This document shows, in pieces, positions 9,428 through 40,028 of a stretch of 64,000 nucleotides of DNA. This DNA is from Siphonodentalium dalli (lineage: Eukaryota; Mollusca; Scaphopoda; Gadilida; Siphonodentaliidae): positions 53,549,849 through 53,613,848 of the forward strand of contig CP136062.1 in the NCBI GenBank assembly GCA_032622095.1. The letters run 5' to 3'. A program made the position numbers and the translations under genes. Each line of letters begins with the position of its first letter. Position 1 is the first letter of the stretch. The notes below the pieces were generated by a model. That model saw only the letters and a list, made by a program, of their open reading frames with translations. It had not been told where the DNA came from and did no database searches.

Positions 9428-9733
9428 ATGACTCGGAGCGATGTCATGTGGCTTGCCGGGGTGATGTTTGCTGTAGTCACCACACTCTGCATGTATGCGA
9501 TCGCCGAACAATGCCAGCTACCCGAATTGAAAGTAGCGCCAGATCCACCACTGACCATCATGCATACAATGAAGAGTCTGAACATGATGCGGTGCCAGAG
9601 GGCGTGTGCTTACACGTTCGGATGTCAAAAGGTTGCATACGATACGACCAAGAAGATCTGCTATTTCCTGGGAAACGGAAGCAGAGAAATCCCTACTGAC
9701 AGTGCATTTGAATACGCCGATAAGACCGTCCTG
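9428..9733 (+). CDS. Exon 1: signal peptide and PAN/apple-like segment
   Basis: The exon codes for 102 residues. Residues 1-27 look like a signal peptide: a short charged start (MTRSD), a hydrophobic core (LAGVMFAVVTTLCMYAIA), then cleavage near AIA-EQ. Next comes a cysteine pattern of PAN/apple type: one Cys just after the cleavage site, then RCQRAC, FGCQKVAYD and KKICYFLGNG. This is the usual C-x3-C-x5-C spacing followed by the 'yd...k.C' strand. The reading frame runs on past the splice site to 9778, but CTG|GTATGT at 9731-9739 is a strong donor and the downstream residues lose domain character. The exon ends in phase 0. A second in-frame Met at codon 7 is an alternative start, but codon 1 gives the better signal peptide. 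A tandem repeat starts 45 bases past the donor. Confidence 0.75.
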
Positions 9734-12700
9734 GTATGTATGATGGTACATGGGAGTCATGCCATTTCCACGCGGTAACAGGATTCATACCCATCTGTTA
9801 ACTAGTACTCGGGATTCATATGCCGATTTAACTGGTATTCAGGATTCATACCCCTCTGTTAACTGGTACTCTGGATTCATATGCCGATTTAACCGGTATT
9901 CAGGATTCATACCCCTCTGTTAACTGGTACTCTGGATTCATATGCCGATTTTAACCGGCAGTCAGGATTCATACCCCTCTGTTAACTGGTACTCTGGATT
10001 CATATGCCGATTTTAACCGGTATTCAGGATTCATACCCCTCTGTTAACTGGTACTCGGGATTCATATGCCCATTTTAACTGTGATTCAGGATTCATACCC
10101 ATCTGTTAACTGGTACTCGGTATTCAAATGCCGATTGTAACTGGTATTCAGGATTCATACCCCTATGTTAACTGGTACTCGGGATCATATGCCCATTTTA
10201 ACCGGTATTCAGGATTCAACAACAATTAAGGCTGATACCCAGCTTTTATAGCACCATTTGTTCAAAATTTTATTGTTTCTTAGCCAAAATGGCATATTTT
10301 GATGTAATTTGGTATCATACATCTTGATATGTTGATGGTATGACCATTCCATCAGCAAATGTGTGAAATTTATAATATTAGTGTGGAATAACCAGTTTGT
10401 ATTCTATAGTTTCTTATCTGGTACGCAGAATTCACCCCTCTGTTTTGTCTGGTATTCAGGATTCAGGGGGTAAAGGGTAACACAGTCGTGTATGTTTTAC
10501 CGATAATACCGTCCCGGTTTGTATTTTTTACCAGATTGTAGCACACGTATATGAGATGTATATCGATATTACATCATTCAATTGAATATAAACTAGACAA
10601 CTGAGTAGGATATGCTCCATAACATTGCATAACCTTTCTGTTACGTTAAAGTTGAAGCTATATAGGCGCAGTCAGCGTAATCGAACCGTATTGTCCAAGC
10701 ACAACAACTTATGTTATTGAATGGCAATCCACCTACTACACACGCGATTGAATATCGAAATAAAGTAAATCGGGGTTCACGATTAGATAGCGATTGCTAT
10801 TCAATCTGAGCAACGGGTTCCATGCGATGTTAGGATTGTATATCGAAATTACTATCATGAGTTAATCGGAGGGTGATAACCAAATATAGAAACAGTTTAC
10901 AACACCACAAGTGATCAGATTACAACACCACAAGTGAACAGATTTGGTCGTACGTAAGTCAAATTCACCTATTGAGTGGGTAACCCTTCCAAAAAAAAAG
11001 ACTCTCTTTAAAAGCAAAACGCTCTTTAATAATGTCTTTTTTTTATTTTTGTTTCATATTTCCGAATATCTTCGTTATATGGTCAATATAATCACCCCCA
11101 TCGATTATATCTGGATAGCCATTTCGAAATACAACCCTAACATCGCGAGGCGCCTATTGTTCAGATTGAATACCAATCTAATAATATATAATCGTGCACC
11201 CCGAGAGTATTCTATTTGAAAAACCAAAGCTGATTAATTTGCGTCTCTGTTTAGTTGTTCGGTGACACTGTCTTATTGTCGCGTGTTGGAGGCAGGTCTG
11301 TGCATTTTTATTTCCTGTTTGGTTTATCGCTAATGATCTCCAGGGTCCTGTACTATACAACTTATATACGTGATTATTACAAAACGGTAAACATTAATGT
11401 CAAACCAATGCCGCTTCACAAACATGGCGGAACCGAGATTGCTAATACACTTATTGATATTGTGCGAAGAATCAGTATTACAAATAAGAACCCATTGTAA
11501 GAAAGCACATTGGATATGTATATTATTGTTGATCACAGTATGGTCTAAATATTACCGTCTTGTATATTACATGTGGTCTATAGTATTGGCCGATGAACCA
11601 AATTATATTAACCAACGACGTTAAACTGTGAGCTGGCAAATCGAGTTTTACAGTGGACCAAGGTCCAATCTGACTGCATACAATACATATAATTATACCA
11701 AATTGGATGTGGGTCCCTTTGGATAAAACCATTGATCTCCTTCGTTATATGAAGGGCCGGAAGTTCAAAACAATGAATAGTGTGTATACAGGGACGAGGC
11801 TAGAGGGAATCCGTTTGGGGTATCAAGTTTCAACTATTGGTCTAAAACAAAACAATCCCGGCTAATGACTGGTTGGAACATCAAACAATCAGAACAATTC
11901 ATATATCGTGTAAATATTCCCAATATAATGTATAATGTATCAGACATGGAATTTGCAACTACTTTAACAACCGTGGGGTGCGGTACGCACAAACACCCTC
12001 ATCTGTAGCCCTGTTTCTATATATGTGAGAGACAGTTCGTTTTCGGTACTCACCGAGTCCATTCTTCCACGCAGGAACCATCACACCCATGCATCCTCTC
12101 TCCGTGTGGCGCCAACTCGATCTGTTCACCTAGCTTCATCAGTGATACCGGATACCGCTGCATTCCATTCGATAGAACCGGTGAGTATATTCACTGTAGA
12201 ATGACGCTCACCAACCAAATGTGACGCCCATTTACTGTTTTGCTACATCTACAACCATGGTGACGTGGTCATGTTAGTTTGCTATGATGTTGCTTGTGGG
12301 TCCTTCTTAATTGATACGATATAAGTTAGAACGAAATAATGCCGTTGAAAACAGTACTTTTTTTTATAAAGTTGGTATAATATGTCATCGGAAGCTGTTA
12401 TTGATGAACAAATATGTGAGATTGAGGAACACGTTACTTAAAATGTTCTTATGTACATATAGGGCATGAGTTGGAGATGACTACACGGGTATATATAGTG
12501 TCCAGTCAGTTGGCTGAATATAGTTCACGAAGCGAAGCCGAGTCAACTGTACCCACCACTGGGCACTATATACACCCCGTATTCAACGACAGGACATCCT
12601 CTATTATTGCATTTCATCTAACAATCTGAACGTGTATCATGCACACTACATAACTGTATCTCACCAAGTTGGAACCAACACGAGCTGCAGGAGAAGTTAA

Positions 12701-18700: not shown

Positions 18701-19547
18701 CTAAATTTCACACCCTAGGTCTACATTTCTCAAAACTTAAGAGATATAACAGACTTATGCGGATATGTCTTGATAAAATTGAATAGCTAAGACATTAAGG
18801 AATCCAAAGATGTGAAATTTTCCACTGTAAACCATACATTTCAGTTGTGACGGCAATTCAAACTTTGAAAATCGATTTTCTCAAAATCATAAAAAATGCA
18901 CTTAGAACAGATTGGAACTCAGGTCGCGAAATGAGACGCGAAACTAACATCGGCTTCTATAAGGAATGCGATGACGTTTCACGTAACTATGCGTTGTTTG
19001 TCCGCGTAAAGAAATAGTCCCAGATAAATAAAGACGCTTTGGCGCATTTAATGGCGTATATTTAATGACATAACTTTTCAAACTCCTCATTAATTATAGT
19101 TTGTTGGAAAATATTTGAAGCCATAGTATTTTGAGATGTAGCGTACGGAATATAAATAGACGACAAACCGACCGGAAGTCAAAGGTCACCGGCACTATTT
19201 CCTGTTATTAAACGAACGTTTAATATCACACATTATAGGCTGTGCTTGCTTAAGTGTCAACGACAGGTGCGAGACGAGAACTATACATGTAGATGCATGT
19301 TCAAGTTTTGCGTGCGCTTTCTATCTACTTCCGGTATATACATTAACCTGTATTTGGTCTCCACTGTATGCATGACGACCTGTATAACTGCGCATTGTCA
19401 CATGATCTCATGTTGATCATGAGCTCTCGTGTGTGTGTGTCTGCTTTCACCCTTGATTGAAATCTTGCATGCTCTCATGATAATACAACTCCATTTTGAT
19501 AGAGGAATAACATATCTCCCTCTTTCGTACACAATCAGAAAGTGAAA

Positions 19548-19579
<32 letters not shown>

Positions 19580-20751
19580 CCAACAACAACGACGACGACC
19601 ATAACGACTCCAACTTACGCAGGTATGTATATATCTGGATCTATCAAGCGAAAACTCTTGAATTTTACTTATCATCTCTTCATTGCTTATATAATTTAAA
19701 AGTTTATTAAAGTTATTAAAAGTTCAAAACAATGGATTTGAATAGATTTTGGGAGGTTAAGTATATTCTTTGTTGTATCTACTCCAGTATATACACTAAC
19801 CTGTTCTCTTTTCTGCACTGTGTGCATGACGATCTATATAATTGTGCGCATTGTCAAATGGACTCTTGTTGATAATGAGTTCTCGTATGTGTGTCTGCTT
19901 TCACCCTTGGTTGAAATCTTACATGCTCTCATGATAATACAAAAACTCCATTGTGATGGAGGTATAACACATTTCCCCCTTTCTTACACCATCAGAAAGT
20001 GAAACAACAACAACAACAACAACTTACGCAGGTATGTATATATCTGGATCTATCAAGCGAAAACACTTTAATTTTACTTATCATCTCTTCATTGCTTATA
20101 TAATTTAAAAGTTTATTAAAGTTATTAAAAGTTCAAAACAATGGATTTGAATAGATTTTGGGAGGTTAAGTATATTCTTTGTTGTATCTACTTCCGTTAT
20201 ATACATTATCCTGTCCTTCTTACAACATCAGAAAGTGAAACAACAACAACAACAACAACAATCACAACAACAACAACAACAACAACCACCTCCACCACCA
20301 CCACCACCACAACAACAACAACAACAACACGTTCAACAACAACAACAACAACAAGTTCAACAACAACAACGACCACAACGACTCCAACTTACGCAGGTAT
20401 GTATACATCTGGAGATATCAAGCGAAACACTTGAATTCTACTTATCATCTCTTCATTCCTTATATAATTTAAACAGTTTTTAAAAGTTCAAAACAATGGG
20501 TTTGAATATATTTGAGAGCTTAAACATATTCTATGTTGTATATACACTATCCTGTACTTGTTTCTACAGTGTATGCTGACGACTTATATAACTGGGCGCA
20601 TTGTGAAATGGTCTCTTGTTAAGCATGAGCTATCATGTGCCTGTCTGCTTTCACCCTTGGTTGAAATCTTGCATGCTCTCATGATAATACAAAAACTCCA
20701 TTGTGATGGAGGAATAACATATCTCCCTCTTTCTTACATCACCAGAAAGTG

Positions 20752-20786
<35 letters not shown>

Positions 20787-23700
20787 GCAGAACAAACTTA
20801 CGCAGGTATGTATCTATGTGGATCAATCAAGCGAAAACAATTGAATTGTACTTACCATCTCTTCATTCTTTATATAATTTAAACAGTAATTACAAGTTCA
20901 AAACAATGGATTTGAATATATTTGGGAGATTAAATATATATTCTATGTTGTATCTACTTCCGGTATATACACTATCCTGTACTTTTTTTCTGCACTGTAT
21001 GCATGACGATCTATATAATTGTGCGCATTGTCAAATGGACTCCTGTTGATAATGAGTTCTCGTATGTGTGTCTGCTTTCACCCTTGGTTGAAATCTTACA
21101 TGCTCTCATGATAATACAAAAACTCCATTGTGATGGAGGTATAACACATTTCCCCCTTTCTTACACCATCAGATAGTGAAACAACAACAACAACAACAAC
21201 TTACGCAGGTATGTATATATCTGGATCTATCAAGCGAAAACACTTTAATTTTACTTATCATCTCTTCATTGCTTATATAATTTAAAAGTTTATTAAAGTT
21301 ATTAAAAGTTCAAAACAATGGATTTGAATAGATTTTGGGAGGTTAAGTATATTCTTTGTTGTATCTACTTCCGTTATATACATTATCCTGTCCTTCTTAC
21401 AACATCAGAAAGTGAAACAACAACAACAACAACAATCACAACAACAACAACAACAACAACCACCACCACCACCACCACCACCACCACAACAACAACAACA
21501 ACAACAAGTTCAACAACAACAACAACAAGTTCAACAACAACAACGACCACAACGACTCCAACTTACGCAGGTATGTATACATCTGGAGATATCAAGCGAA
21601 ACACTTGAATTCTACTTATCATCTCTTCATTCCTTATATAATTTAAACAGTTTTTAAAAGTTCAAAACAATGGGTTTGAATATATTTTAGAGGTTAAACA
21701 TATTCTATGTTGTATATACACTATCCTGTACTTGTTTCTACAATGTATGCTGACGACTTATATAACTGGGCGCATTGTGAAATGGTCTCTTGTTAAGCAA
21801 TTAGCTATCATGTGTCTGTCTGCTTTCACCCTTGGTTGAAATCTTGCATGCTCTCATGATAATACAAAAACTCCATTGTGATGGAGGAATAACATATCTC
21901 CCTCTTTCTTACATCACCAGAAAGTGAAACAACAACAACAACAACAGCAGAACAAACTTACGCAGGTATGTATCTATATGGATCTATCAAGCGAAAACAA
22001 TTGAATTGTACTTACCATCTCTTCATTGTTTATATAATTTAAACAGTTATTACAAGTTCAAAACAATGGATTTGAATATATTTGGGAGATTAAATATATT
22101 CTATGTTGTATCTACTTCCGGTATATACACTATCCTGTACTTTTTTTCTGTACTGTATGCATGACGATCTATATAATTGTGCGCATTGTCAAATGGACTC
22201 CTGTTGATAATGAGTTCTCGTATGTGTGTCTGCTTTCACCCTTGGTTGAAATCTTACATGCTCTCATGATAATACAAAAACTCCATTGTGATGGAGGTAT
22301 AACACATTTCCCCCTTTCTTACACCATCAGAAAGTGAAACAACAACAACAACAACAACAACAACACCAACAACTTACGCAGGTATGTATATATCTGGATC
22401 TATCAAGCGAAAACACTTTAATTTTACTTATCATCTCTTCACTGCTTATATAATTTAAACAGTTATTAAAAGTTCAAAATAATGGCTTTGAATAGATTTG
22501 TGGGAGGTTAAATATATTCTGTGTTGTATCCACTCCAGTATATACACTAACCTGTTCTCTTTTCTGCACTGTTTGCATGACGATCTATATAATTGTGCTC
22601 ATTGTCAAATGGACTCTTGTTGATAATGAGTTCTCGTATGTGTGTCTGCTTTCACCCTTGGTTGAAATCTTGCATGCATGCATCAACGTAATACACATAA
22701 TCATGGTTCTGACTGATAAATCATTACTACAAATTAAGTTAATGGCAGCTGTGACATGTTACCAATCACGAATGTCCCGGCAGTACATCACTCTCACAGC
22801 CATAGTGAAGTGCATGATTAATACAAATTAATTCTGAGTTATAAATTGTCATGATTCAGTATGGTCCTCTTGACATGGAATAGGAATGTTTGTAACATGT
22901 GCATCAGGGCCTATGTGATTTGGGTGGGGGGGGGGGGGGGGGGGGGTGATGTATGTATTTGCTTACAATTTACAACATGTGGACATTTCATGCGTGACAC
23001 ATTAGTTGAAAATTGTCCAACCTCAGGGGGTGGATGTCAAATAAGAGATATTGAAACGTTCCAACTCAAGCGGGGGAACATGGGGTCCAGGAGCATAATA
23101 CAATTTAAGTGAAATGTTCCACGACTCATGCGAGCGGAGGGGGGGGGGGGGGGGGTGTGAATCTAATTTTGCGCAGTTGGGAATTTGGTCTGTTTTAAGG
23201 TGGTGGGCAGACAGAAATTTCAATGAAGACCCCCGACTGAAACAAATCTTGTCACGTGAATATACACACATTTACCACACCCTGCAGTGGGGAGGGGTGG
23301 GACAAGAGGATTGTGTGTGTTTAACCTTGTATGTCTATCCATCTGTCGTTGTAAAATTACTTTTGATTTTTCAACCAGTCGCAAGCGAGCTTTCTCTGTG
23401 AGCCTTGACATCACTTGATAAACAAACATTCCCCCGGCGCTGATAAATTCAATGATGGCCGACCACGTCAAAATATAAACGAAACTCGAACAATACTTTA
23501 GCCTTTTAAAATCAGTTTCATGACTATACACATTGTTGGTCTAGGGGTAATAGAGACCTTTCGCAAAATCACTATTACGATTACGGAGGAGATATATTGT
23601 AAGGTGGACACCATACAAAAGTTGGATATACGATGGTTGAGACTGTATATGCCCCACTATACACTGTTAACAAATAGCGTCGTTTCAACGGTCTGAGACT

Positions 23701-26700
23701 GCGCAACATCGCTGCCAACTTTTGAAAGTTAAACATACGGTCAGACCGTAGCATGTTCCACGGTATAATACCATTAAAGTAACTGGCAGACCGTAACCAG
23801 TAACTGTCAGACCATTGTATTCTTTACGGTTTAGCACCCTTTAATTAATATCAAGACGGTAACTAATAAAGGTCAGACCAATGGTATTTTATGGATCAGC
23901 ACCGATGTTTTGCTCTTTATTTGTTAATTTACCATAGAATTAGCCAGGTTCCCATGTTGACAATATGATTTCCCAGTAGGCATTACGATTCATATGTTTT
24001 TGAATGGTCGAAACTAGTATTATTCGTAACTGAAAAATACATCTTAGTTCTTATGTTATGATCATAGTTTGGATGAAATGTAAATCCTCAATGCATAAAG
24101 TGATAGACGATACTTATGAAACTTTGCAGTTTGCACAGGATCAAGCTTGTTATCTGCCTCATAGAATTTAATCCGAAAAAGGCTGCGCACGCGTAATTTG
24201 TTCGCCTTTCACTAACTACTGTATAACCATGGCTGTAAATAAAAAAAATGATACTAGTAATAGCTGATAAGCCAACCCACCACTATTCAGTTATGAGTAA
24301 TACTAATTTCGACCATTCTAAAACATGAATCGGCATGCCCTTTTAAGCCATAAAAAAACAAAGCTACATGTTTCACAGTTAAAACTCAAATTTATGTACA
24401 TGTAAAAGTTAAATATCTTAATGGCATACTTTTGGTAACATATAAGGCGTGAAATTGTCCAGTCACTTGCAAGCACGGTTTTTGTTTTAACAGGTGAATC
24501 CGTACATCATGACAATACTGTACAAGTCAGAAGAAGTGGTCTTTTTAGGCGCACCTTTATTGTGATATTGAGCGTGCTTAATTTAGAAAAACGTGTGATT
24601 ATAGCACAATACCAAAAATCTGTCCCGCTTATTATTGCAATATTGAATGCAAAATATTGCGATTCTAAGCGCGCTAAATTTCATACAGACCCGATAGTGT
24701 TATATTTATATAATATTAGATAAATACTGTGCATATAGTGTACATATAGCATTTACAACTATAATTATATACATATCTAAAATATTGTCTCTATTTATAC
24801 AATAAACAATATAGAAAAAGCAATAATTTGATTTAAATGTCACAATTTTGAGCGCAAGATGTCGCAATACTAAGCGCAAACTATTGAGATATTAAGTGCA
24901 AAATATTGTGATAATATCTCAAGCGACATGCTTATAATCGTTCCCACTTGCAATATTATTGTGATATTGTCAGAGCGCAAAATAGCGGGCTTAATATACC
25001 ACTTCTTTTGACTGGTTATGTATATACCGGTATCAATAACAGCTAGTTGGGATTGGAACCTTCAAGACAACAGCAGATCCCATAATAACTGTGCACAATG
25101 ACTTGGCCACAATGTTCTCCTGTTGTCGCACATTTTCAATGAAATATCAGTGAGTCAGCCAAAGATGGTTTGATAAGAACATCCAACCAATAGTGTAATC
25201 CCGGTAAATTGTCGTAATACCGGTAACTTGACAATAACATGGTGAATAATGACAATGTCTCATATCCACACGTTTCAATGAAAATTGATGAACACGGGAT
25301 GAATTGGTCTGTGTAATTGCAAAGTTGGAATTGTAGATATATGATCATCCATCACTGCGCGGCTTCAGTTCATTGTTTACCTGTATCTGTAGTGGGTTCA
25401 GTGCAGTAACCAATTCTGGTTTTAGGCGCACTGGGTGGAGGATGATGTTGATTCGGTTGAGGACTCTTTTTGTTTTTGTTTTTATTATAAATTTTTATTT
25501 GAAAAAAAGACAAATACATTGTGATAATACATGAATTATATTACAGTTAATGGTTGGTAATTAAACAGTTTTTGTCTCTTTCGTTATTTTTTTGTTTGAG
25601 ACTGTAGAAAGGTAGAAGAGAAAAAAGAGTGTGGAGTGAATGGTTTTATGAATGTTGTGTTATTTAGTTATATTAAATTTCCATTAGTTATAATAATAAA
25701 TATAATGAATATAATGAAAATGAAATATTGGGTATATGTATTATTCATAATTTTTTCTGAGTCCCTCACGTTATTAGGTATATATATGGTAATTACATAA
25801 TGCAAAATAGTAACATTGAGGGATTATTAATTAGTGTTAGCATCGAGCTAAAAGTCTTAAAATCTGGTATATTTACGTAACGTGATTATGTACGGCATGG
25901 ATAGATGGTATGCAATTAATTTTACTCACTATATGATTCAAATAAGTAAGCATACTGTTAGGTAAGTCACACAACACGGCACATGTCTGGTCAACATTCG
26001 TGTTTAAACACAGTTTTTACAATACTAAATAATATTTACGGAATACTTGTGTGCCAGGCATGTGCAATGTTATGTACTACATTTCCAGCATACATGTAAA
26101 TATCTATAGTTATGTATGTGCTGTTTAACTGTAATAGTGTAACAGACCTTTCCATTTATCCCACCGATATTCGAACTCAGTATATCTAGATTTGCTGTAA
26201 AAAATCCATCTTTCAGTTTTTGCGTACATTCGTATTTCTGCTTGGATATTTTGCAATTTTGGTAATTCAGATCTCATCTTTGATCGGTATATATTATACT
26301 TAATTATGACCAATATCGTTTGGAGGAGTGGATCAATTTTCTCAGTATCAGCTTTGCCAAATAAAATAGTGTTTGAATTAATTTCTAATTTATTTGAAGT
26401 CGTGTTAAATATCCATATACGAATCTCGTTCCACAGCGAAGCAATAATGTGACATTGAAACATAAGATGGCTAATGGTCTCTTTTTCAATTTTACAAAAA
26501 GAACATGTAACATTTTCAGATCGACCCATTTTCTTTAGTACATTGTTAGTCCCTAATATTCTATTGTTTATCCGATATTGAAACCATACATATTTCATGT
26601 CACAAAACTGAACAAAGGGAGTTTTTAAAACGTCTGACCACCAGTCTAATTCATGGTGCATATTTAGTTTCTTCTCCCATTTTGAGATGAGGTTCATGTT

Positions 26701-29700
26701 CATTTTGGGGTCTTGAATGCAATTGTATATATATTTCGAATTCGATTTGAGTAAGTGTTCGATCTGATACGGTAGTATTGGGTTGTTCAGTCGTTCGTTG
26801 TTACTTTGTTGATAGCTACTAGAGTTTTCCATTTTAGTTAGGTATTTTGTTATTGAAGAGATTATACCGTTTTATGTCAAACAATCTGTTTTAATGCCAT
26901 ATAACCGCTTTGCTTCGTCATAGGACATTAATTTGTTATTATCACACATAAGATCGTTCACAAAATATATGCCACGAAGGGCCAACGATCTGTCATTAAT
27001 TGCGTGTTTATTTATTTTGAAAATATCGTTATTTACAATCGTCGATGAGAGCACATCACTGTGCGTTTTTGGGGCCATCTTTAAGTTAAATATTTTCCAT
27101 GCATCTAGAACATCTATCCAGGATTGATTGATATATTTGCTTTTATATCTATTAAGGGCACATCCATTCGATAGATACCATTTGTCATTGTTTGTACACT
27201 CCATTTGATATCGGACGAGGTTTTGCCAAGTATCCGGTTGAGTTATGTAGCGTTTCACCCATGACATTTTCATTGAATGCATAAATGTTTGGATATCAAT
27301 CATTTTACAACCTCTCATGGAATAGTCTTGTTGAAAATATTTCCTAGCAATTTTGTCAGGTTTTTTATCCCATATGAAATTATATATGTCTTTGTTAATG
27401 TCAGTTAAGAATGTTTTTGGTGGATTTGGAATTGTCATAAATAAAAACGAGAGTTTAGAAAGTACCAATGACTTGAATATTGTGACTCTCCCGATAACCG
27501 TCAGGTGTCTTTTAGACCACACAGAAAAAATTGTTCGTATCTGGTTGTACGCTGTGGTGTAATTATTCGAAAATATATCATCGGCATCTAATTGGAAATT
27601 TACACCGAGAACTTTAAAACCATTTGGTAGCCATCTTATTTTCCATCTGTCACATATAGAGTCAGTACAATCTCTTTTCTTACCAATCCATACCGCAACT
27701 GTTTTGTCGTAATTAATTTTTAAACCTGAAATAAGATAAAAGTCATGTAATAGCTCGAATGCATTGTCAAGGCTTTGGGGGTCACCATCAAGAAATAATG
27801 AGGTATCGTCAGCATATTGTGAAAGTTTAAATTCTGAATTCCCTATCTTAATACCCTTGATAATTTTCCGTTTCCGGAATCCTATACCTAATATTTCTAC
27901 ACACAATACAAAAATGTAAGGCGAAATTGGATCACCTTGGCGACAGCCCCTCGATATTCTGAAGCTACGAGACACATGCCCGTTGATATTGACATTTGAC
28001 GATATACCGTTATACAAGCAATTAATGATTTTAATAAAATTATCCCCAAAGTTGAAGTATTTTAAGACTGACGACAAGAATGACCATGAGACCGAATCAA
28101 AAGCTTTTTCGAAGTCAATGAGTACAAGTAGTCCAGGAATATTAGCAGATTTTGTTGTGGACAGGATGTCTGATATTAATCGTATATTTTCGCCAATGAA
28201 TCTACCTTTTAAAAACCCACTCTGGTCATGATGAATAAGATCTTGAATTACACTTTTCAATCTTTCAGAATGTATACCAGATAAAATTTTGTATGACACA
28301 TTAAGAAGTGAAATAGGTCGCCAGTTTTTTAGGAATTGTTTTGGTTTGTTTTCTTTTGGAATCAGAGTAAGAATACCGTGTTTCTGTGTAACCGATAATT
28401 CACCTTTATCTAACCGTAGTTTAATGACCTAACTAGGAATTGACCAATTTTATTCCAAAACATTTTATGAAAATCACACGAGAAGCCACTGGAACCAGGG
28501 CTTTTGTTATTGCGCATATGTTTTAAATAGGTTAATGCCTCGTTTTCAGAAATACGTGATTCAAGGGTGTGAGAGATTTCTGGAGATAATTTATTTGGGA
28601 AATTATTTGTGTTATCATTTTGAACGCGAACAAATTGTTCAATGTCCGATACATTTGTGTTCTCGTGTCTATTTTCATATAATTTTTCGTAATATAGTTT
28701 GGCCTCTTCGAGAATATCATTTTGATCTGTAACCACTTTACCATCCTCTTTTTCAACCCGAAGAAGTGCTTTATTCATATAATGTCTTTTTTCTAAGTTA
28801 AGAAAATATTTAGTTGGTTTTTCCCCATCACTGACCCATCGAGCTCTTGAACGTATCATTGCGCCTTCTAATTTCTTTTTTCTTATATCTTCTAATCGTA
28901 GTTTAAGTTGTTGTAATTTCTCAATACCAACATCATCAGTAAGCCGATTTTCTAACACTTCAATGTCTGCTTCAAGTAAAGATTCTTCTTGGCGTTTAGT
29001 ATTTGCTAGTGCTTTTGAAAAAGTTAACGTCGTTTTTCTCATCTCCATGAGCAATGTTTCAAAGAATAATTGGTCGTTTATTTGAAACTTTGGACTCTCT
29101 TCGTTATCACATAGCGTGTCATTGTCCGACGATTTATACTGTTCGACAGTCGTCTTTACAGTTTCATTTATTTTATCGACAAAAGTTTTATTAGAAAGTA
29201 GAGAGTTATTAAATTTCCAATAGCCACGTCGTATCACATAATTTGAAATTCACAGTTGCTATTGAATGATCGTACGATAACCAGGTATTACGGAAGATGA
29301 TTCAATAAAAGGCAAAATACAGTTTGATATGAGAAAATAATCTAAACGTGCTTGTTTAAACGGGGACTTTCTTCGCCAAGTATATCTTAGTTGTTCTGGG
29401 TTCTGATATCTCCATACATCAATGAGGTCTTTTTCGCCGATTAGTTTAAATAGTTCCTTGCGAGCTTTCGGGTTATTGTCACCAACGTAATTAAAACAGT
29501 CTTTTGAAGGATTAAGGGCAATATTGTAATCACCACAAATCACAACGTTATCAGATATGATATCATCGGTTAGTATTTTGTTAATTTGTTCATAAAAAGA
29601 CGGGGTATCTGCATTGGGTCCATATATATTTACTAATATTAGCTTGAAGTCATATACATTAATTTCGGCTATGAGCATGTTCCCATTTGGGTCCGTATGT

Positions 29701-32700
29701 AATGAATTAATCTTTAGACCAAATGTATTATTGAATAAAATCGCGACGCCTCTACTTGATGATTTGAAAGAATTAAAACAACAAGTATAACCCCACTCCG
29801 ATTGAATAAATCTCTCTTGATCGCGAGTAAAATGAACGTCTTGTAAACAGTAAATGTCATACTTCAACTTTTTAAGGTACGTGAAGACATCTCTCCGTTT
29901 TTTCTTATCCCCAAGTCCTTGACAATTCATTGAAAGAATTTTAACCGACATCTATTAATTGTAGATTGTTAGAGCAAGCCCATATTTCATTTTCAAAATA
30001 CATGTGAATAAGAAACAAACATAGTGCAAACCTTAGTAGAGGACAGAAATACATTAAAAAGAGGATTGTGTGAACATTGCTTCCTAGTTCGGGACAGGAA
30101 GTTCCAAAGCATATTATTTGAATATAATATTAAAGACAGTTATTTTTGTGTTTATTACACACCCGCGTGCATATGTGCATATGGTCTATGTGTGTATGAA
30201 GGGTGTATAGTGCGCATTATTAGCTCCGTAAACAGAATAGATAACTATTTTAATTTTAGGTCTAAATTCTTGACTAGAATTCAATGGTGTTGTCAATTCA
30301 GTAATGGGCTTTAATTCAGTGTGTTTGTATATACGTACGGCAACATGTGTATATACTTAACAATTTTAAAAGTCGACATTAATCGGTAACAAAAATACAC
30401 AACCTGGTATTAATTAGCCAATGATTTGTCAATATAACATAAACAATCTTTGAGAACGCGAGATGTGTTGCAATAAGACAATTAAAGTTCAGCCTGATAT
30501 GTAGCTTCGCAAATTAATGTAAGGTGTGACATATATCGGACACGTCATGGCTGAGAAAAGTACAATCTATAAATAAAATCAATCGATATGTGTTTGGGCA
30601 ATGCAGCTGAAAGGTACAGTCTATAAATAGAATGAATCGATATTCAGGTTGACAACAGGCGGTCAGTGAATGGTCAGATTAATAGTTAGGCCAGAGTAAC
30701 ATAATGTTCAGTTTGTCAAGGTATGCCTGTTAACTTCACTTGGTGGTGATTGGATTAGTTTATGCGCAAGTGTATAGTGCCATTGTTATGAACTATAATC
30801 TCGGCATATGTATTTAAAAAAATATTATTTCACTTATTGAGATAATATAGAAGTATGACACACGATATGTGTATATGTGCATCAGATAGGAAAACATATT
30901 GGCAGCGAAAAATGAATTATAAGAAGGGGTTCAGATCAGATTAAACAGGACATTTTTAGTAGGGTGGTTACAGACATTGAGCGAAACAAGAAATTATAAG
31001 AGGAGATTCAGATCAGATTAAATTAAACAGGACGCTTTTAATGGGTTGGTTACAGATTTTGAGTATCGTTGTAAAATTATGTGTCAGAAATGGGGAGAAA
31101 AAGAAATTGACAGCGAAATATGGATTATAGGAGAAGTTTGAAAGTAGGTTTTAGCAGGTTAATTTTAGCGGGGTGATGATGTTGGGCGGATGTGGTATCA
31201 GGTCGATGTCAATAGAGCAGTTATGTACAAAGGTGAGTCATATCACAAGTCATTTTCTAGCGGTCGATCTTTTCGCAGCGTCTTTGAATAAGTGGTCCAG
31301 GTTTTCTAAAATGTCAACTTTAACATTCGTGTCGTTCTGCAGCTTTGCCCAAATAAACCCGTTCCTGTGGTATCCGTATTTGACCATCCTGTGGTCAAAC
31401 AGTGAGTTCATCAGCTGCAGATTGTCCCTAGTTAAGTCGTCGCGCACTTTAACCGGTGCCATCGATCCGTCCGTCTTCTTCTGCTTCAGAACGTTTCTCT
31501 TTTGGAACACCATGTTCCGTGTATCGGCTCGCAGGAACTTCACGATACACGGGGGAGGCTGTGATTTGGAAGGAAGTCGATGAGCCGCTACAATATCAGC
31601 CGTACTTATCTTAATTTCGGTCTGCGACTGATTTACAATGTTGCAAAATCTTTCTGCCAAAGTGTGATCATCATTTTCTGTGACCTGGATATCCAAAGCT
31701 CGTACACACGTTTTCCTGGAATATTGTTCCGCTTTATTTAATTGTTGCCTGAGATATTTTATGTCTGTCTTTAAATTGTCGTTTTCAGCACGATACACGT
31801 CAACTTCTTCTCGCAACAAATCTGCTTCCGTCTCGTAGTGATTAATTTTGTCAGTCAAATCCTTTATGTGAACCGAAATATGCTTGTCGATATCAGCCTG
31901 CAGTTGCGTTTTGAAAGATTCAAACTTCTCTTCTATGCCTTTTGAAAGGAACTCTTCCATGAATTTCACTGTTGGGAGTGTGTCCATATGTGTTTCTAGT
32001 CGAGTAAGCTGTTCCGTCAGCCCCTTAAAGGCCTCGGACTCCATGAAAGAAGAATTGGCCCCAAGACTGTCTCTTTCCTCTCGAGCACGTTTCGACGCAG
32101 GTGCTTTGTCCTTCTGTTTTTCTTTAATTGGAGCAGCAGGTACCTTCGGCGTCCCTTTCTTTCCCTGTGTCTTGTCGTCTTTTCCGTCGCCCATTGTTGT
32201 TAACTGATCAGAGAATCCGGATAGTGAAACCAACAATTAACGACACCAATAGGCCAACCGTCTAGACTAAACACTGAACTCAATGGAACTACTCAAGCGT
32301 GACGAATAAATCGACAAGAAATATGTTATGTAATCGATAGTCCTCGAAATTAAGCCATACGAAACAGTTCAAACATCAAAAACATAGCATACAGTTTTCA
32401 ATTTGTGCCGATTACCTTGGTTAATCAAGCGGTAGTTATACACATAGAGAAGAGTCAATAATGGTCGTCTTACATAGTTTTACAAGAACGAATTATGCTT
32501 TGGAACAGGAGAGCTTTTTTATCGATCCATTGTTTACTTTTACGAAACCGGAAGTCTCCGTTGAGGACTCTGATGATGCTGTGTCCTCAGGTTCAGTGAT
32601 TCCATCGTTGCGGAGTGCCCGTAATAGTTGTTTACGGTGTTGCTGACATTGCAGCTCTTGTGAATTACACTGGTGCACGCAGTGCATGTATATCCTCTCT

Positions 32701-35700
32701 TGTAAATGTACATGCAATGATGCATGAGCTTTGAAACAATCAGATTCTGAACACTGTCAACTGCATTTTCAACATTATAATAGCAATAGCTGCTCGTTGA
32801 GTTGTTGTTATTATTGTCACTATTGGTTGACATCGAAGCTAGTGTTACCTGTATCCTCTTGTGTCAGTATATGTGCCAGCGTTTTGATACTAAGTCACAA
32901 CACTGCAATTTCAACATCAGCAATGCGTCGAATGAAGTCAGACCCCCGATCGTGCCATGATTGACATGAATCTCGACTCTCTGAGTCGAATTTAGTGGAA
33001 TTTGTCAATGATTAAGCCGCTATTCGCTGAATTGCAACTTGTCCGGTTATCAAAGGAACCGAAATCAGACCGTCTTAACAACTGTCCACAATCGAAAAGG
33101 TAACAATTTCCCAAAAACAACAATTTACGATCAAATATGCATTGCCAAATACAAAATGGAGTATAAATGAGCTGTGATAAAGCGAGTAACTTAACCCCGA
33201 TTTATATAAATGAGCTGTGCTAAAGCGAGTAACTTAACCCCGTTTTAGATACTCATGCTAATTCGTACTATACGCATAACACATAATGAATGCCGGATAA
33301 ATAATATATATTAAATATCAGCAGAGTACGATTCAGTCCTACTGTATGGAGTAATTGCCTTATATAATATGGTCGCCGATAAATATACCATTGAATTTTC
33401 ACGTCGTAACTTTGAATCACGAAAATATTTAATTTAGACAATTTTCATGGGCACATAAAATAACGGTATGGGGCCGTCAAACTGATGAAACGGTATGGCA
33501 CCGTCGATTATGACGGTGAGAAACCGTCGAACCGACAGTAATTTTTAACAGTGTATTCAATAGCACATATATATGTAATGGAAAAAGTATTGTGTGTCTC
33601 TTTCAGATCCCATGTTCTTACCCGTGTGTTATACACCACGCGGATAATGTTAGAGTGTCCCCAAGCAGGACCGGTGGCGCATCCTTGACACATCTGCACA
33701 TAATTAAACTGCGTGTGGTATATGTCTCTCACATAAGAACCCCCGTGCGTAGAGATATAATTTTTGGCCGTATACTGCCAGGATCTTTTCGATATCCGTA
33801 ATCGTAATCGTGATTTTGAGAAAGGTCTCTAATATCAGCAATCGGACTATCGATTATGATTAGAATACACATCAGGTATGACGGGATGCGGCGTCTTATT
33901 TTTTCCTTTTTTTTTTTTTTTTTAGAGATTGTTGATCAGTTTAAACATAATGCTATCCCGCGGATTGACATTTTCCTGATATTGAGCAATGGGTTGATTA
34001 TCGGACATTCGAGATGGAAAGTTTTGGGGCTGTTTCCACACAATCATATTCGACAGTTGTTAGTGGTGAAGAATAGCGTTTAGGGAAAAAATAAAACTGT
34101 CAACTGGGTTGGTTTGTTGAAAAAAAGATGTTTTTGAAACCATTTTCCGAGACTTTGTGTGATTCCCTCCAATGGGGATATTTGATCCATCTGAAAATAT
34201 ATAACAAAATTAAAAAACAATGTACTCGGACTCCTGTGTTAACCAGGAATGATTCCCGTCTGGAGCCATACAATCTATGATTCGGTGTAGGACATATGCT
34301 GTTTTTCTTTCAACTGGATGTAAATTGCTCTTTTGGTGATTTAGTGATGTCGTCAGTCCACACCACATCACACCATGTGGAATTAGTTTAGTGGTCTGTT
34401 CGAGCCTGTCTCTGACAGACGTTATATTATAATGGCGATATCACGAGTCTGACTAGCACCCTTGATTTGTGGAGCTAGAATAGAGGAATATAGATAGATT
34501 AGTCTGAACAATTCTCATGAAATCAGAGTCACTTGCGTTACCGGAAATAATTATTTTGTGATATAATTAAAACAACTCATCTCTGCCAGCAGTTCTGGTT
34601 AAAACACAGACACACAGCTATGCAAGTGAGTCTGGGGTAAATATGGGGATTTCTGTTACCACCAGCATAATTACGTCAGTCTCACCCAATCACACTATCA
34701 TCGGGAAAGCGATGTATCCTATCAGGCGATGGTTGGACTGCCTTTACAGTGGTAGATTAATCTCTTGGCGATTTAGTGATGCCGTCAGTCCACATCACAT
34801 CACGCGGAAACAGTTAATTCGTTTGTTCTGTCTGTCTCTGAAACCGTTATAGTACAATGGCGATATCACGAGTCTGACTGGTATCCATGGCGATATCACG
34901 AGTTTGACTGGTATTCAGGATTTGTGGAGCTAGAGTAGAGGAATATAGATATGTTAGTCTGAACATGTATCATGAAATCGGAGAGTCACTTGCGTTACCG
35001 GAGTTAACTATTTTGTGATATAATTAAAGCAATTCCTCTCTGCCAGCATCATACTATTCCATAGTCATCGGGATTCAATGAAGCTGTGTCATAACTGTAA
35101 AATTTATGACGGAGATCCATCTTTACATAATCCGACCCTTATTCAACAATATGCAAGGACGTGGCGACAGGGGCTGGGTTAACTCACCCTCAACTTTGTT
35201 CAAACTTTTAAGTAGTTTAAATATTTTGTCAAATGTTTTGTCAAATGTTTGGGCTGAAGTGGCCATTAGTTGGAAAATTGCCAACCATAGTGGAGGGATT
35301 CGTGTTGGAAATTTCCAATAGCTGCATATTTTGAAGTACCAGTTGGATAATTCCTATCGAATGGGGCACAAACAACATGTCCTGAACTTGGAACTATTGG
35401 TCTCGGTCAAGGCCGGAAAGCTGTTAATTCAAGCGAACACCCCTATCGGATACTGTAGCTACGTCCCTGTCCAATAACATCCTGTTGAATAATTGGTTCG
35501 TATGAACTGACACACGTTGTCCATAAACATAATGTACATGCACGCGAAGGTACACAAGTAATGAAATACAATTGACATATTTAGATGATAATTATATGTA
35601 CGTACATGTATGTTATTTTTATGTTGCAGATTGTAAAGAGTTGAAGGCTGCGGGCGTTCGGAACGACGGTTCGTATAAAATCACACCAGGTGGCACCACG

Positions 35701-36267
35701 GAAGTCGAAGTCGTCTGCGACATGACGACAGCCGGAGGTGGATGGACCATTTTGCAGCAAAGAAGAGACGGAAGCACCAATTTTTTTAGGAACTGGACAG
35801 AATACGAAAACGGATTTGGCGATCGTACCACAATTGGAAACTACTGGATCGGACTGAAGAACATTCACCAACTATCTTCAATTGGCACTACCGAGTTGTA
35901 CGTCAGCCTGACCACAACAAACGGACTGAATAAATATGCTCGATATTCCACTTTCAGTATCGGTGACGCTTCAAACAACTACGCTCTCCGCGTGTCAATG
36001 TACAACGGTAACGCGGGCGATTCTCTGAATTATCATAACAGGATTCCGTTCAGCACTTTCGACAACGACCACACCGAGTCTGGATGTAACTCGCCATGTA
36101 CCGTCCAAGAGCACGGGGCGTGGTGGTACCGCTGTTGCTCTTATTCCAACCTAAACGGGGAGTATCAAAACACAACGTTCGGAAATGCTCGTGGAATGCT
36201 CTGGATCATCGACCTCGACATGCGATCTGTGATGCACACCACGATGATGCTCCGCTCGGCTGGATAA
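9428..36267 (+). CDS. Secreted PAN-EGF-(Thr-rich stalk)-fibrinogen domain protein, whole gene
   Basis: This span joins exons whose phases agree throughout. 9428-9733 ends in phase 0, and 12075-12180 starts in phase 0 and ends in phase 1. Eight optional phase 1-1 mini-exons lie at 19539-22381, and 35630-36267 starts in phase 1. The three anchor exons total 1050 bases, which is 349 aa plus stop. Adding all eight mini-exons gives 562 aa. The order is signal peptide, PAN/apple-like segment, EGF-like module, threonine-rich stalk, fibrinogen C-terminal domain. Proteins of this class are extracellular and fibrinogen domains usually bind carbohydrate or acetylated ligands, often in innate recognition; that role here is inference. 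The intron before the fibrinogen exon is very large because of transposon insertions. Further exons I did not recognise could exist. Confidence 0.7.
9779..10222 (+). repeat. Minisatellite of about 61-bp units, seven copies
   Basis: Each unit joins two related halves of about 30 bases. One contains 'ggattcatacccctctgtta' and ends 'actggtactc'. The other contains 'ggattcatatgccgatttta' and ends 'accggtattca'. Both halves share the start GGATTCATA and the end GGTANTC, so the 61-bp unit is a dimer of a 30-bp ancestor. A lone degenerate half copy is at about 10419-10470. The array sits at the 5' end of intron 1 of the lectin-like gene. Confidence 0.9.
10765..11215. mobile_element. MITE-like element with inverted arms of about 85 bp
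   Basis: 10771-10850 and 11121-11203 are inverted copies that share 'cgatgttagg.ttgta', 'tcgaaatt' and 'attcaatctgancaa' in complementary order. The roughly 270-base centre has no ORF or recognisable motif. Target duplications were not identified. It lies in intron 1. Confidence 0.55.
11216..12074. other. Intron 1 remainder
   Basis: There are overlapping short frames on both strands at 11255-11732 but none with protein family character. Nothing else is recognised before the exon 2 acceptor, which is 'ttccacgcag' ending at 12074. Confidence 0.4.
12075..12180 (+). CDS. Exon 2: EGF-like module
   Basis: After the acceptor 'attcttccacgcag' the phase-0 frame reads EPSHPCILSPCGANSIC, then SPSFISDTGYRCIPFDRT. 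This is the PC-x4-C-x5-C ... GYRC core of an EGF-like repeat. The exon stops after one extra G in front of the donor GTGAGT at 12181, so it ends in phase 1. That matches the start of the fibrinogen exon (AT, giving GAT, Asp) and of the mini-exons (AA, giving GAA, Glu). The module is short and lacks the last cysteine or two of a standard EGF; the Cys of the following DCKEL in the fibrinogen exon cannot be assumed to substitute. The exon is only 106 bases and no similarity search supports it, so confidence rests on the phase match, the splice signals and the cysteine pattern. Confidence 0.65.
12480..12582. mobile_element. Hairpin MITE
   Basis: The arms 12483-12506 and 12558-12580 are inverted copies ('gtatatatagtgtccagt' against 'actgggcactatatacac'). 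An inner stem pairs CAGTTG with CAACTG around 'cgaagcgaagccgag'. No coding content. Confidence 0.55.
12983..13147. mobile_element. Hairpin MITE with 72-bp arms
   Basis: 12984-13055 and 13075-13146 are nearly exact inverted copies, including 'ctacaacgagt', 'gtttatagcgg' and 'acgagtccagtaaatt' in complementary order, around a centre of about 20 bases. The element at 52515-52606 shares the pattern 'gaatttac..aacgag' and the following 'catgatc.aaaa', so the two probably belong to one family. Confidence 0.7.
13960..14772. mobile_element. Palindrome-array element: GGAGATATCTCC units between inverted ends
   Basis: The ends start TATGGGGCGCCATC and are inverted copies over about 45 bases with four mismatches. 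They are flanked on both sides by GATTTG (13954-13959 and 14773-14778), a perfect 6-bp target duplication. The roughly 720 bases inside consist almost wholly of the self-complementary word GGAGATATCTCC and relatives such as AGCAGATATCTGCT, separated by 5-15 base spacers ('ttggatccaa', 'ttgaaat', 'cataatcc'). There is no ORF of its own; the minus-strand frames here merely translate the repeat (RRYLLG, KEISPW). The only interior interruption is a roughly 55-base unique patch near 14365-14420. The superfamily is unknown. Confidence 0.8.
14773..19320. other. Intron 2, first part: no gene recognised
   Basis: This is long AT-rich intron sequence, with ACA/CAC-rich stretches around 15.1-16.7 kb. Frames of 60-103 codons occur on both strands but none shows a domain, a signal peptide or consistent coding character. 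A 30-base segment at 18900-18929 is the exact reverse complement of 13191-13220. No tRNA or other RNA gene was seen. Confidence 0.4.
19539..19622 (+). CDS. Mini-exon A (28 codons, Thr-rich)
   Basis: The acceptor 'cgtacacaatcag' follows a pyrimidine-rich stretch, and the donor is CAG|GTATGT. In the phase-1 frame it reads SEK, a Thr run, a few substitutions from ACN to CCA/ATA, then PTYA. At 84 bases it preserves the frame. It is the first and most diverged of the array, with a run of acg codons near its end. Confidence 0.6.
19996..20031 (+). CDS. Mini-exon B (12 codons, Thr-rich)
   Basis: The acceptor is 'cccctttcttacaccatcag' and the donor is CAG|GTATGT. The exon is 36 bases and reads SETTTTTTTYA in phase 1. 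It is the same length as mini-exon E. Confidence 0.6.
20232..20396 (+). CDS. Mini-exon C (55 codons, Thr/Ser-rich)
   Basis: The acceptor is 'gtccttcttacaacatcag' and the donor is CAG|GTATGT. At 165 bases this is the longest of the set. The phase-1 frame reads S-E, then Thr runs broken by single Ile, Ser, Arg-Ser and Ser-Ser, ending in PTYA. The substitutions (ATC, TCC, CGT, AGT, CGA-type changes read as Thr/Ser) keep the frame open and threonine-rich. Composition is that of a heavily O-glycosylated mucin-like segment. The upstream intronic block is shortened here relative to B and D. Confidence 0.65.
20746..20805 (+). CDS. Mini-exon D (20 codons)
   Basis: The acceptor is 'ctttcttacatcaccag' and the donor is CAG|GTATGT. 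The exon is 60 bases and reads SE, a Thr run, then AEQTYA, a variant tail shared only with mini-exon G. Confidence 0.6.
21173..21208 (+). CDS. Mini-exon E (12 codons)
   Basis: This is the copy of B in the second trio. It starts with AT instead of AA, so the junction codon would be GAT (Asp) rather than GAA (Glu). The acceptor is 'cccctttcttacaccatcag', the donor is CAG|GTATGT and the length is 36 bases. Confidence 0.6.
21409..21570 (+). CDS. Mini-exon F (54 codons, Thr/Ser-rich)
   Basis: This is the copy of C in the second trio. At 162 bases it is one codon shorter. It has lost the internal Arg and has a longer CCA/ACC block. It ends SS, a Thr run, PTYA, in front of CAG|GTATGT. The frame is preserved despite several repeat-length differences from C. 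Confidence 0.65.
21921..21965 (+). CDS. Mini-exon G (15 codons)
   Basis: This is the copy of D in the second trio with a shorter Thr run. It is 45 bases and has the same AEQTYA end, the acceptor 'ctttcttacatcaccag' and the donor CAG|GTATGT. Confidence 0.6.
22331..22381 (+). CDS. Mini-exon H (17 codons)
   Basis: This is the first exon of a third, incomplete trio. It is 51 bases and reads SE, a Thr run with one Pro, then TYA. The acceptor is 'cccctttcttacaccatcag' and the donor is CAG|GTATGT. The array ends about 300 bases later. Confidence 0.6.
22690..23548. other. Intron 2 spacer with two G runs
   Basis: No gene was recognised. There is a 21-base G run at 22926-22946 and a 17-base G run at 23139-23155, with shorter G-rich blocks ('cctcaggggg', 'gcgggggaac') between. 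Frames crossing them are not convincing. Confidence 0.5.
24515..25022. mobile_element. Second copy of the Tc1/mariner-like MITE
   Basis: It is collinear with 1026-1534 and has the same interior words. The ends are diverged ('actgtacaagtcag' left, 'ttttgactggttatg' right). Confidence 0.55.
26125..29951 (-). pseudogene. LINE ORF2: endonuclease and reverse transcriptase, lightly damaged
   Basis: The ORF codes for about 1275 residues. It has an apurinic-type endonuclease from MSVKILSMNCQGLG, with CLQDVHF, VNIYGPN, CGDYNIALNP and the beginning of the final DHS motif. Next is a linker with RGYWKFNNSLL and then the reverse transcriptase. RT landmarks are NWRPISLLN, LIDFEKAFDSVSW, GCRQGDPISPYIF and the catalytic QYADDTSLFLD. 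The C-terminus has a zinc-knuckle-like C-x2-C-x9-H-x4-C motif within NVTCSFCKIEKETISHLMFQC. Damage is of three kinds. A patch near 29240-29278 has the expected DHSIATVNFK in another frame, with the frame restored after it. A frameshift lies near 28430 between VRSLNYG and LDKGELS. One in-frame TAA is at 26872-26874. The motif set places it in the L1/Tx1 group. Confidence 0.85.
29952..31249 (-). other. Long inter-ORF spacer of the L1-like element
   Basis: This is 1.3 kb between ORF1 and ORF2 with no long frame. A roughly 100-base segment is repeated at 30905-31080 ('agattcagatcagattaaa', 'ggttggttacag') and partly again near 31090-31150, so it contains diverged tandem copies. Confidence 0.6.
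31250..32194 (-). CDS. LINE ORF1: coiled-coil nucleic-acid-binding protein
   Basis: The ORF codes for 314 residues from MGDGKDDKTQG; an upstream in-frame Met would add 14. The first 40 residues are Lys/Pro-rich and basic. A long heptad-like helical region follows, about residues 50-165, with ETEADLLREEVDVYRAEN and YLRQQLNKAEQYSRK. The C-terminal half resembles the RRM and C-terminal domain of L1-type ORF1 proteins: the motif AEQYSRKTCVRALDIQV, then ADIVAAHRLPSK, PCIVKFLRADTRNMVF, and VRDDLTRDNLQLM. In this family the protein trimerises through the coiled coil, binds the element's RNA and forms the retrotransposition particle. The frame is intact. Confidence 0.8.
   Translation of the reverse strand: MGDGKDDKTQGKKGTPKVPAAPIKEKQKDKAPASKRAREERDSLGANSSFMESEAFKGLTEQLTRLETHMDTLPTVKFMEEFLSKGIEEKFESFKTQLQADIDKHISVHIKDLTDKINHYETEADLLREEVDVYRAENDNLKTDIKYLRQQLNKAEQYSRKTCVRALDIQVTENDDHTLAERFCNIVNQSQTEIKISTADIVAAHRLPSKSQPPPCIVKFLRADTRNMVFQKRNVLKQKKTDGSMAPVKVRDDLTRDNLQLMNSLFDHRMVKYGYHRNGFIWAKLQNDTNVKVDILENLDHLFKDAAKRSTARK
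34080..35629. repeat. End of intron 2 with a direct duplication of about 270 bp
   Basis: About 34333-34595 and 34769-35050 are direct, diverged copies. Both read 'gtgatttagtgatg.cgtca', 'atggcgatatcacgagt', 'gatttgtggagctaga', 'tcacttgcgttaccgga' and 'ctctgccagca'. The second copy carries a small internal repeat of 'atggcgatatcacgagt'. No exon is visible in the rest. The intron ends with 'tttttatgttgcag' at 35616-35629. Confidence 0.7.
35630..36267 (+). CDS. Last exon: fibrinogen C-terminal (FReD) domain
   Basis: After the acceptor 'tgttattttta-tgttgcag' the exon starts with AT, completing an Asp codon with the phase-1 G of the previous exon, then CKELKAAGVRNDGSYKI. The domain is about 211 residues, the normal length. 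It contains the standard landmarks VVCDMTTAGGGWTILQQRRDGS, NFFRNWTEYENGFGD, YWIGLKNIHQLS, the calcium-site region FSTFDNDH and GAWWYRCCSYSNLNGEY, and it ends MRSVMHTTMMLRSAG. In ficolins and related proteins the DxD region binds calcium and the neighbouring C-terminal half binds acetylated sugars; ligand binding here is inference. The Cys-Cys pair in YRCC and the SGCNSPC insertion differ from the commonest pattern. A frame open from 35572 is only intron read-through. Confidence 0.93.
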
Positions 36268-39947: not shown

Positions 39948-40028
39948 TTACAACAACAACAACAACAACAACAGCAGCAGCAGCAATAACAACAACAGCA
40001 GCAACAACAACAATAACAACAACAACAG
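39948..40028. repeat. (CAA/CAG)n microsatellite
   Basis: Imperfect CAA repeats with CAG and AAT interruptions. Unlike the mini-exons at 19-22 kb it is not preceded by a splice acceptor or followed by ACTTACGCAG|GT, so I treat it as non-coding. Confidence 0.8.

Follow-up and report, generated by a model that had tools for sequence, protein, structure and literature searches.

We conclude, with a probability of about 0.72, that eight tandemly duplicated exons within a single large intron are true coding exons that are probably mostly all included in the transcript and that together encode a long, extended Thr stalk. These exons lie in the window (the whole stretch of 64,000 nucleotides of Siphonodentalium dalli DNA analyzed here) between the EGF-like and fibrinogen exons of a gene that also contains a PAN/apple exon.

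Exon 1 of this gene (9428..9733, plus strand) contains the ATG, a hydrophobic leader judged by eye, and a PAN/apple domain (Pfam PAN_1, PF00024; E=5.3e-5, 23.4 bits compared to a cut-off of 21.4), and it ends in phase 0 at a GTATGT. Shortly 3' of the PAN exon is a 31/62-bp tandem repeat (9779-10218; 7.1 copies of 62 bp). The second exon (12075..12180, plus strand), delimited by its frame and splice sites, is 106 nt long, encodes 35 amino acids including 4 Cys, and runs from phase 0 to phase 1. It had been called an EGF exon ending in phase 1 in the initial annotation. The phase was correct. Because this exon contains only four cysteines and gave no Pfam match at E≤0.01, the name EGF is a loose one, and the exon is EGF-like at most, which makes the gene no more than a candidate FReM (EGF-like + fibrinogen). 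It gave 96 genome matches at E≤0.001, itself among them. The fibrinogen C-terminal domain is encoded by a single exon (35630..36267, plus strand) that starts in phase 1 and ends with TAA, and its match to Pfam Fibrinogen_C (PF00147; E=2e-56, 191.7 bits compared to a cut-off of 22) identifies it as a FReD, whose nearest solved relatives are those of ficolin-3, ANGPTL6, tenascin-R, and FIBCD1. The PAN domain is upstream of the FReD on the same strand, as in PAN/apple-containing FReDs, and a common transcript is predicted. Ligand binding, and hence a lectin role, is putative for this FReD, whose solved relatives include ficolins and FIBCD1, and the leader suggests that the protein is secreted, with a membrane anchor as a possible alternative. 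The last intron (22382-35629) also contains LINE-like frames on the minus strand (26125-32236, extent judged by eye), one of which encodes a reverse transcriptase domain (PF00078, E=5.7e-36). An unbroken 1164-aa frame at 47285-50779 on the minus strand is by appearance a second LINE protein, and a further CAA tract is present 3' of the gene at 39950-40028, outside the scanned intron.

The eight stalk exons, all on the plus strand, are D1 (19539..19622, 84 nt), A1 (19996..20031, 36 nt), B1 (20232..20396, 165 nt), C1 (20746..20805, 60 nt), A2 (21173..21208, 36 nt), B2 (21409..21570, 162 nt), C2 (21921..21965, 45 nt), and A3 (22331..22381, 51 nt), each assigned by its splice sites, its open phase 1-1 frame, and a scan of the intron. 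The starts, lengths, and open frames given for these eight (CAA)n exons in the initial annotation were reproduced to the base. All eight have a CAG acceptor and a GTATGT donor and end in TAC GCA G, and each encodes the module (Glu/Asp)-Ser-Glu-(Thr-rich)-Tyr-Ala, where Asp replaces Glu in A2, which starts with AT. A TAAC box is present at position -29 in six copies and is missing only from the acceptors of B1 and B2. When the 23.4-kb intron at 12181-35629 was scanned permissively (AG ... GT[AG]NG, 27-600 nt, length divisible by 3, phase 1-1 frame open, ≥45% T+S), exactly these eight exons and no further Thr/Ser-rich phase 1-1 exon frame were recovered. The two other reading frames of the repeats were rejected: the Asn frame contains a stop in all eight exons, and the Gln frame is interrupted by a stop in D1 and is out of step with the flanking phases. 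The claimed agreement of the 1-1 phase with the phase 1 end of the EGF-like exon and the phase 1 start of the fibrinogen exon was borne out.

When all eight exons are joined, the stalk has 213 residues (149 Thr and 16 Ser), of which B1 and B2 contribute 109, and has the high Ser/Thr content of mucin-like regions. Its Thr density and composition suggest that it is probably O-glycosylated. Any subset of the exons had been proposed to preserve the frame, and computation confirmed that all 256 combinations stay open between the flanking exons, giving 256 distinct proteins of 136 different lengths (349-562 aa). The accompanying claim of stalks ranging from 0 to 213 residues is thus sound as arithmetic over these subsets, but not as an observation.

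Four classes can be told apart among the eight copies, which follow one another as D, A, B, C, A, B, C, A, and alignment revealed a tandem duplication of a three-exon block (20032..22381), in which [B1 C1 A2] (20032-21208) is followed by [B2 C2 A3] (21209-22381). The two blocks differ at 18 of 1157 aligned bases (1.6% divergence), and the 150 bases 3' of A1 and of A2 are identical. Five inter-exon introns that were compared are mutually 87-99% identical, and the stretch before D1 is only ≈70-72% like those introns. Since neighboring exons are homologous and their splice sites are intact, the array qualifies as a tandem exon duplication and, judged from the alignment, the last step of the expansion is the duplication of the three-exon block, where the near-identity of the blocks could also reflect an assembly error. 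On the donor side, part of an inter-exon intron (20408-20530) resembles a dispersed repeat; 28 of 53 matches in a search with the unit were outside lectin loci, at 72-80% identity. We speculate that unequal crossing-over could have been aided by the remnant of a mobile element next to the exon.

We searched the 2.2-Gb assembly (9 contigs), in which fibrinogen domains are abundant (677 candidates at first look, 150 of them scored), for related genes. A sister gene on C2 at 44.85 Mb, ≈8.7 Mb from the window gene and in the opposite orientation, has an EGF-like exon, three stalk exons (105, 93, and 129 nt), and a fibrinogen exon in that order on one strand. Identity to the window gene is 85.7% over 35 aa in the EGF-like exon and, for the fibrinogen exon, 68% in one comparison (219 aligned positions) and 71% in another, and a PAN exon upstream of the sister gene is 86% identical to exon 1. 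Since two stretches of the sister gene are 83-91% identical to these five inter-exon introns of the window, the exons may already have started to multiply in the common ancestor of both genes; support at the key nodes of the intron tree was weak (0.72-0.83).

Including this pair, we found stalk exons at 17 loci, with 24 delimited exons of 36-639 nt, plus two partial exons that were left out of this count, one with an unsettled 5' end (L021) and the other with a 3' end beyond the fetched stretch (L062). The L062 exon has an open frame of no fewer than 181 codons and sits between EGF-like and fibrinogen exons. One stalk exon was seen at each of the 15 loci outside the sister pair; 13 of these exons are delimited and range from 18 (L066) to 213 (L089) codons, the 5' end at L020 being less sure because it was chosen by pyrimidine count. 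The stretches covered at these single-exon loci were ≈1.2-3 kb each, and a DNA search with the unit gave no second unit beside them among the matches listed. Among the matches listed, and compiled by hand, a same-strand EGF-like exon lies within 35 kb upstream at no fewer than 13 of the 17 loci, the window included (none is listed within that distance for L065, L020, L088, and L089). A same-strand fibrinogen exon lies within 15 kb downstream at at least 7 of the 17 among the matches listed, with none listed for the other 10, and PAN, EGF-like, stalk, and fibrinogen exons occur in this order at at least 6 of the 17, again among the matches listed. Same-family Thr-rich phase 1-1 exons are seen on C7, C1, and C6 (L020, L021, L026, L059, L081, and L088-L090), several of them behind PAN and EGF-like exons and with no fibrinogen exon among the matches listed. 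For the stalk exon on C7 at 203.7 Mb, a fibrinogen exon was absent from the 5 kb beginning ≈1.1 kb behind it. The exon-start pattern was specific, in that all 20 of its genome matches were stalk exons and the reversed pattern gave none. The exon-end pattern was unspecific, with 116 matches at ≤1 mismatch (100 of them listed and 30 turned into loci) compared to 988 when the pattern was reversed; its exact matches numbered 14, and all but two of them (L019 and L022) were stalk exons. Comparison with these homologous exons backs the earlier claim that the window exons code in phase 1-1, with the reservation that phase agreement in the paralogs is partly inherent in the design of the scan. This comparative evidence is the strongest that we have. 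Because homologous Thr-rich exons with the same ends are present in related genes, we read the array as an older stalk exon that has been expanded in tandem.

Codon usage further supports coding by these exons. At the Thr-silent third position, 489 of 807 departures from ACA were found in 20 exons (a non-redundant set that leaves out A2, B2, C2, and L088 as near-duplicates), compared to 75 of 282 in 20 control CAA tracts read in the same frame. Full third-position counts were 45 of 74 departures in the window and 543 of 890 in the paralogs, and the control tracts gave 22 of 126 without two tracts in which the periodicity was broken. In the same 20 non-redundant exons, the purity of ACA as the Thr codon was higher in shorter stalk exons (Spearman -0.73, p=0.0003; confounded by clade). 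An A/C-rich splicing enhancer in small exons might account for this purity, as might simply recent slippage.

Variation among the copies points in the same direction. For the four unit classes, 1 of 32 exon and splice edge columns varied compared to 41 of 238 intron columns (p=0.024); the corresponding values were 2 of 32 and 48 of 237 for all eight copies (p=0.038) and 4 of 32 and 85 of 238 when three paralog units were added (p=0.005). These tests give modest support, and the copies, being related, are not independent; the upstream-intron columns exclude B1, B2, and p44a, which are unalignable in that stretch. The branch and pyrimidine stretch from -37 to -1 varied in 8 of 37 columns, which is no less than the intron. 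In ungapped comparisons to A1 of nine distant exons, out of 16 paralog exons, the exon ends were more alike than the nearby intron: identity was 6-11 of the first 11 exon bases, 6-9 of the last 10, and 7-8 of the 8 donor bases, versus 13-19 of 52 positions in the downstream intron. In the upstream intron (-60 to -26), 3-10 of 35 positions were identical in seven of these exons and 23-24 of 35 in two.

CAA tracts are plentiful in this genome ((CAA)9 gave 3935 + 4643 overlapping matches), which could favor the view that a CAA microsatellite or satellite array imitates exons by chance. However, none of the 20 control tracts passed the same exon scan, and the paralogs have homologous exons between the same domains. 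We therefore rejected a chance microsatellite, which we consider extremely improbable. The controls were CAA stretches of 381-401 bases taken from the first listed places in the same genome, and because all come from contig C1 and several are copies of a single repeat family (e.g., L096, L099, and L107), they are neither random nor independent.

It is rather unlikely, in our judgment, that combinatorial splicing of cassette exons is the point of the array, with regulated or stochastic inclusion of subsets producing many stalk lengths in each animal. The openness of every subset, the heterogeneity of the acceptors, and the absence of the TAAC box from the two exons that supply about half of the stalk would all suit such a mechanism, and there are precedents in the repeat variants of SmPoMuc (PMC2576457) and the Thr-rich stalk exons of CADM1 (PMC5385562). 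However, any duplicated 1-1 exon is frame-neutral, so this property is no sign of use, and the donors are GTATGT in all eight copies. Moreover, at six of the loci where one delimited stalk exon was seen, no TAAY box is present from -16 to -50 either, which implies that a missing TAAC box need not mean a weak acceptor. Similar stalk lengths are reached at other loci with one exon and, because a single Thr exon there can be as long as 213 codons, constitutive inclusion is at least as plausible; as far as sequence can tell, inclusion of all eight exons would fit the data as well as combinatorial splicing. Regulated exon choice is possible, and B1 and B2 are the best lead to it. Decidedly unlikely is the more extended, joint claim that tissues or animals choose among the eight exons, that exon copy number also varies through unequal crossing-over, and that the B exons are the main switch, between 213 and 104 stalk residues. 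Folding of the 56 bases of RNA before A1, B1, and C1 was not significant (z of -0.60, -1.73, and -1.82, respectively), and a CTCCAT..ATGGAG hairpin is intact in some copies only.

We also find it very doubtful that splicing draws on just one copy or a few and that the others are recent, unspliced, or decaying duplicates. The low divergence of the duplicated block and the small size of A1 and A2, which may be poorly recognized at 36 nt, are consistent with this view. By contrast, the acceptor, donor, and open frame are intact in all eight copies, and the exon and splice edges are less variable than the introns.

Under the preferred reading of a long stalk with mostly full inclusion, the ancestor would have been a phase 1-1, Thr-rich stalk exon of the type seen singly at other loci. 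Placed between a phase 1 donor and a phase 1 acceptor, such an exon could be multiplied without damage, and the stalk would have lengthened by duplication of single units and then of the three-exon block, together with CAA slippage inside exons. In a protein of the PAN/EGF-like/fibrinogen type, the stalk modules would thereby come to lie between the last two domains, where a stalk of up to 213 residues would separate the fibrinogen head from the PAN end. All copies are 1-1 with good splice sites, so that most or all of them would probably be present in most transcripts. Skipping of any copy keeps the frame, so stalk length could drift or be tuned. Within one gene family, the Thr stalk has been lengthened in two ways, by growth within one exon, to as many as 213 codons, and by multiplication of a frame-neutral exon, to 3 copies in the sister gene and 8 in the window. 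The occurrence of both routes in one family provides a natural test of whether genome copy number or splicing tunes the stalk length of a recognition lectin, or whether neither does.

Several elements of this arrangement have counterparts in other systems. Like the PAN/apple and fibrinogen proteins described in the molluscs Biomphalaria, Crassostrea, and Lottia (PMC7588048), the window gene combines these two domains; the word threonine does not occur in the main text of that report. Occasional Thr-rich stretches precede the fibrinogen-like domain of rotifer FReDs (PMC8878817), as in the window gene, so that the mere presence of a Thr-rich region in a lectin of this type is no novelty. According to the available text of PMC8878817, the N-terminal region of the rotifer proteins has no detectable domains, and hence no PAN or EGF-like domain, and no exon array is described there. 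The available portions of PMC4759782 and PMC3269628 contain nothing on Thr-rich stalks in fibrinogen proteins, and a full-text literature search, mostly at the level of listings, found no Thr-stalk exon array in fibrinogen lectins.

Outside the fibrinogen proteins, schistosome micro-exon genes have many symmetrical small exons and disordered Thr/Ser/Pro-rich regions that are predicted to be O-glycosylated (PMC4671649), and they share symmetry, small size, and Thr richness with the stalk exons. However, their micro-exons are shorter than 36 bp, and tandem copies of one stalk exon are not described for them in the available text of PMC4671649. The Thr-rich stalk of CADM1 is likewise exon-encoded, by exons 8 (Thr 17/28) and 9, which are alternatively included and reported to be O-glycosylated (PMC5385562). 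Unlike the window gene, CADM1 has two alternative exons, encodes a membrane protein, and is discussed in that source for an effect on shedding. In the PTS domain of chicken Muc13, each repeat is encoded by one exon, as is each stalk module here, and the authors suggest that splicing may set its length (PMC1552070). Unlike the window protein, Muc13 is a transmembrane mucin with a SEA domain and at least 12 repeats of 20 aa, and we claim no homology. SmPoMuc of Schistosoma mansoni consists of tandem units of ≈1 kb with up to 20 copies of a 27-bp exon that encodes mucin repeats, the number of copies changing from gene to gene, and cDNA variants differ (PMC2576457). As in the window, a short exon and its flanking introns are tandemly repeated and encode mucin-type repeats. 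SmPoMuc has a uniform 27-bp exon and is not a fibrinogen lectin, whereas the units here are 0.24-0.51 kb long, with exons of 36-165 nt that have undergone CAA slippage. Thus, the design of one exon per mucin repeat is already known from SmPoMuc and chicken Muc13.
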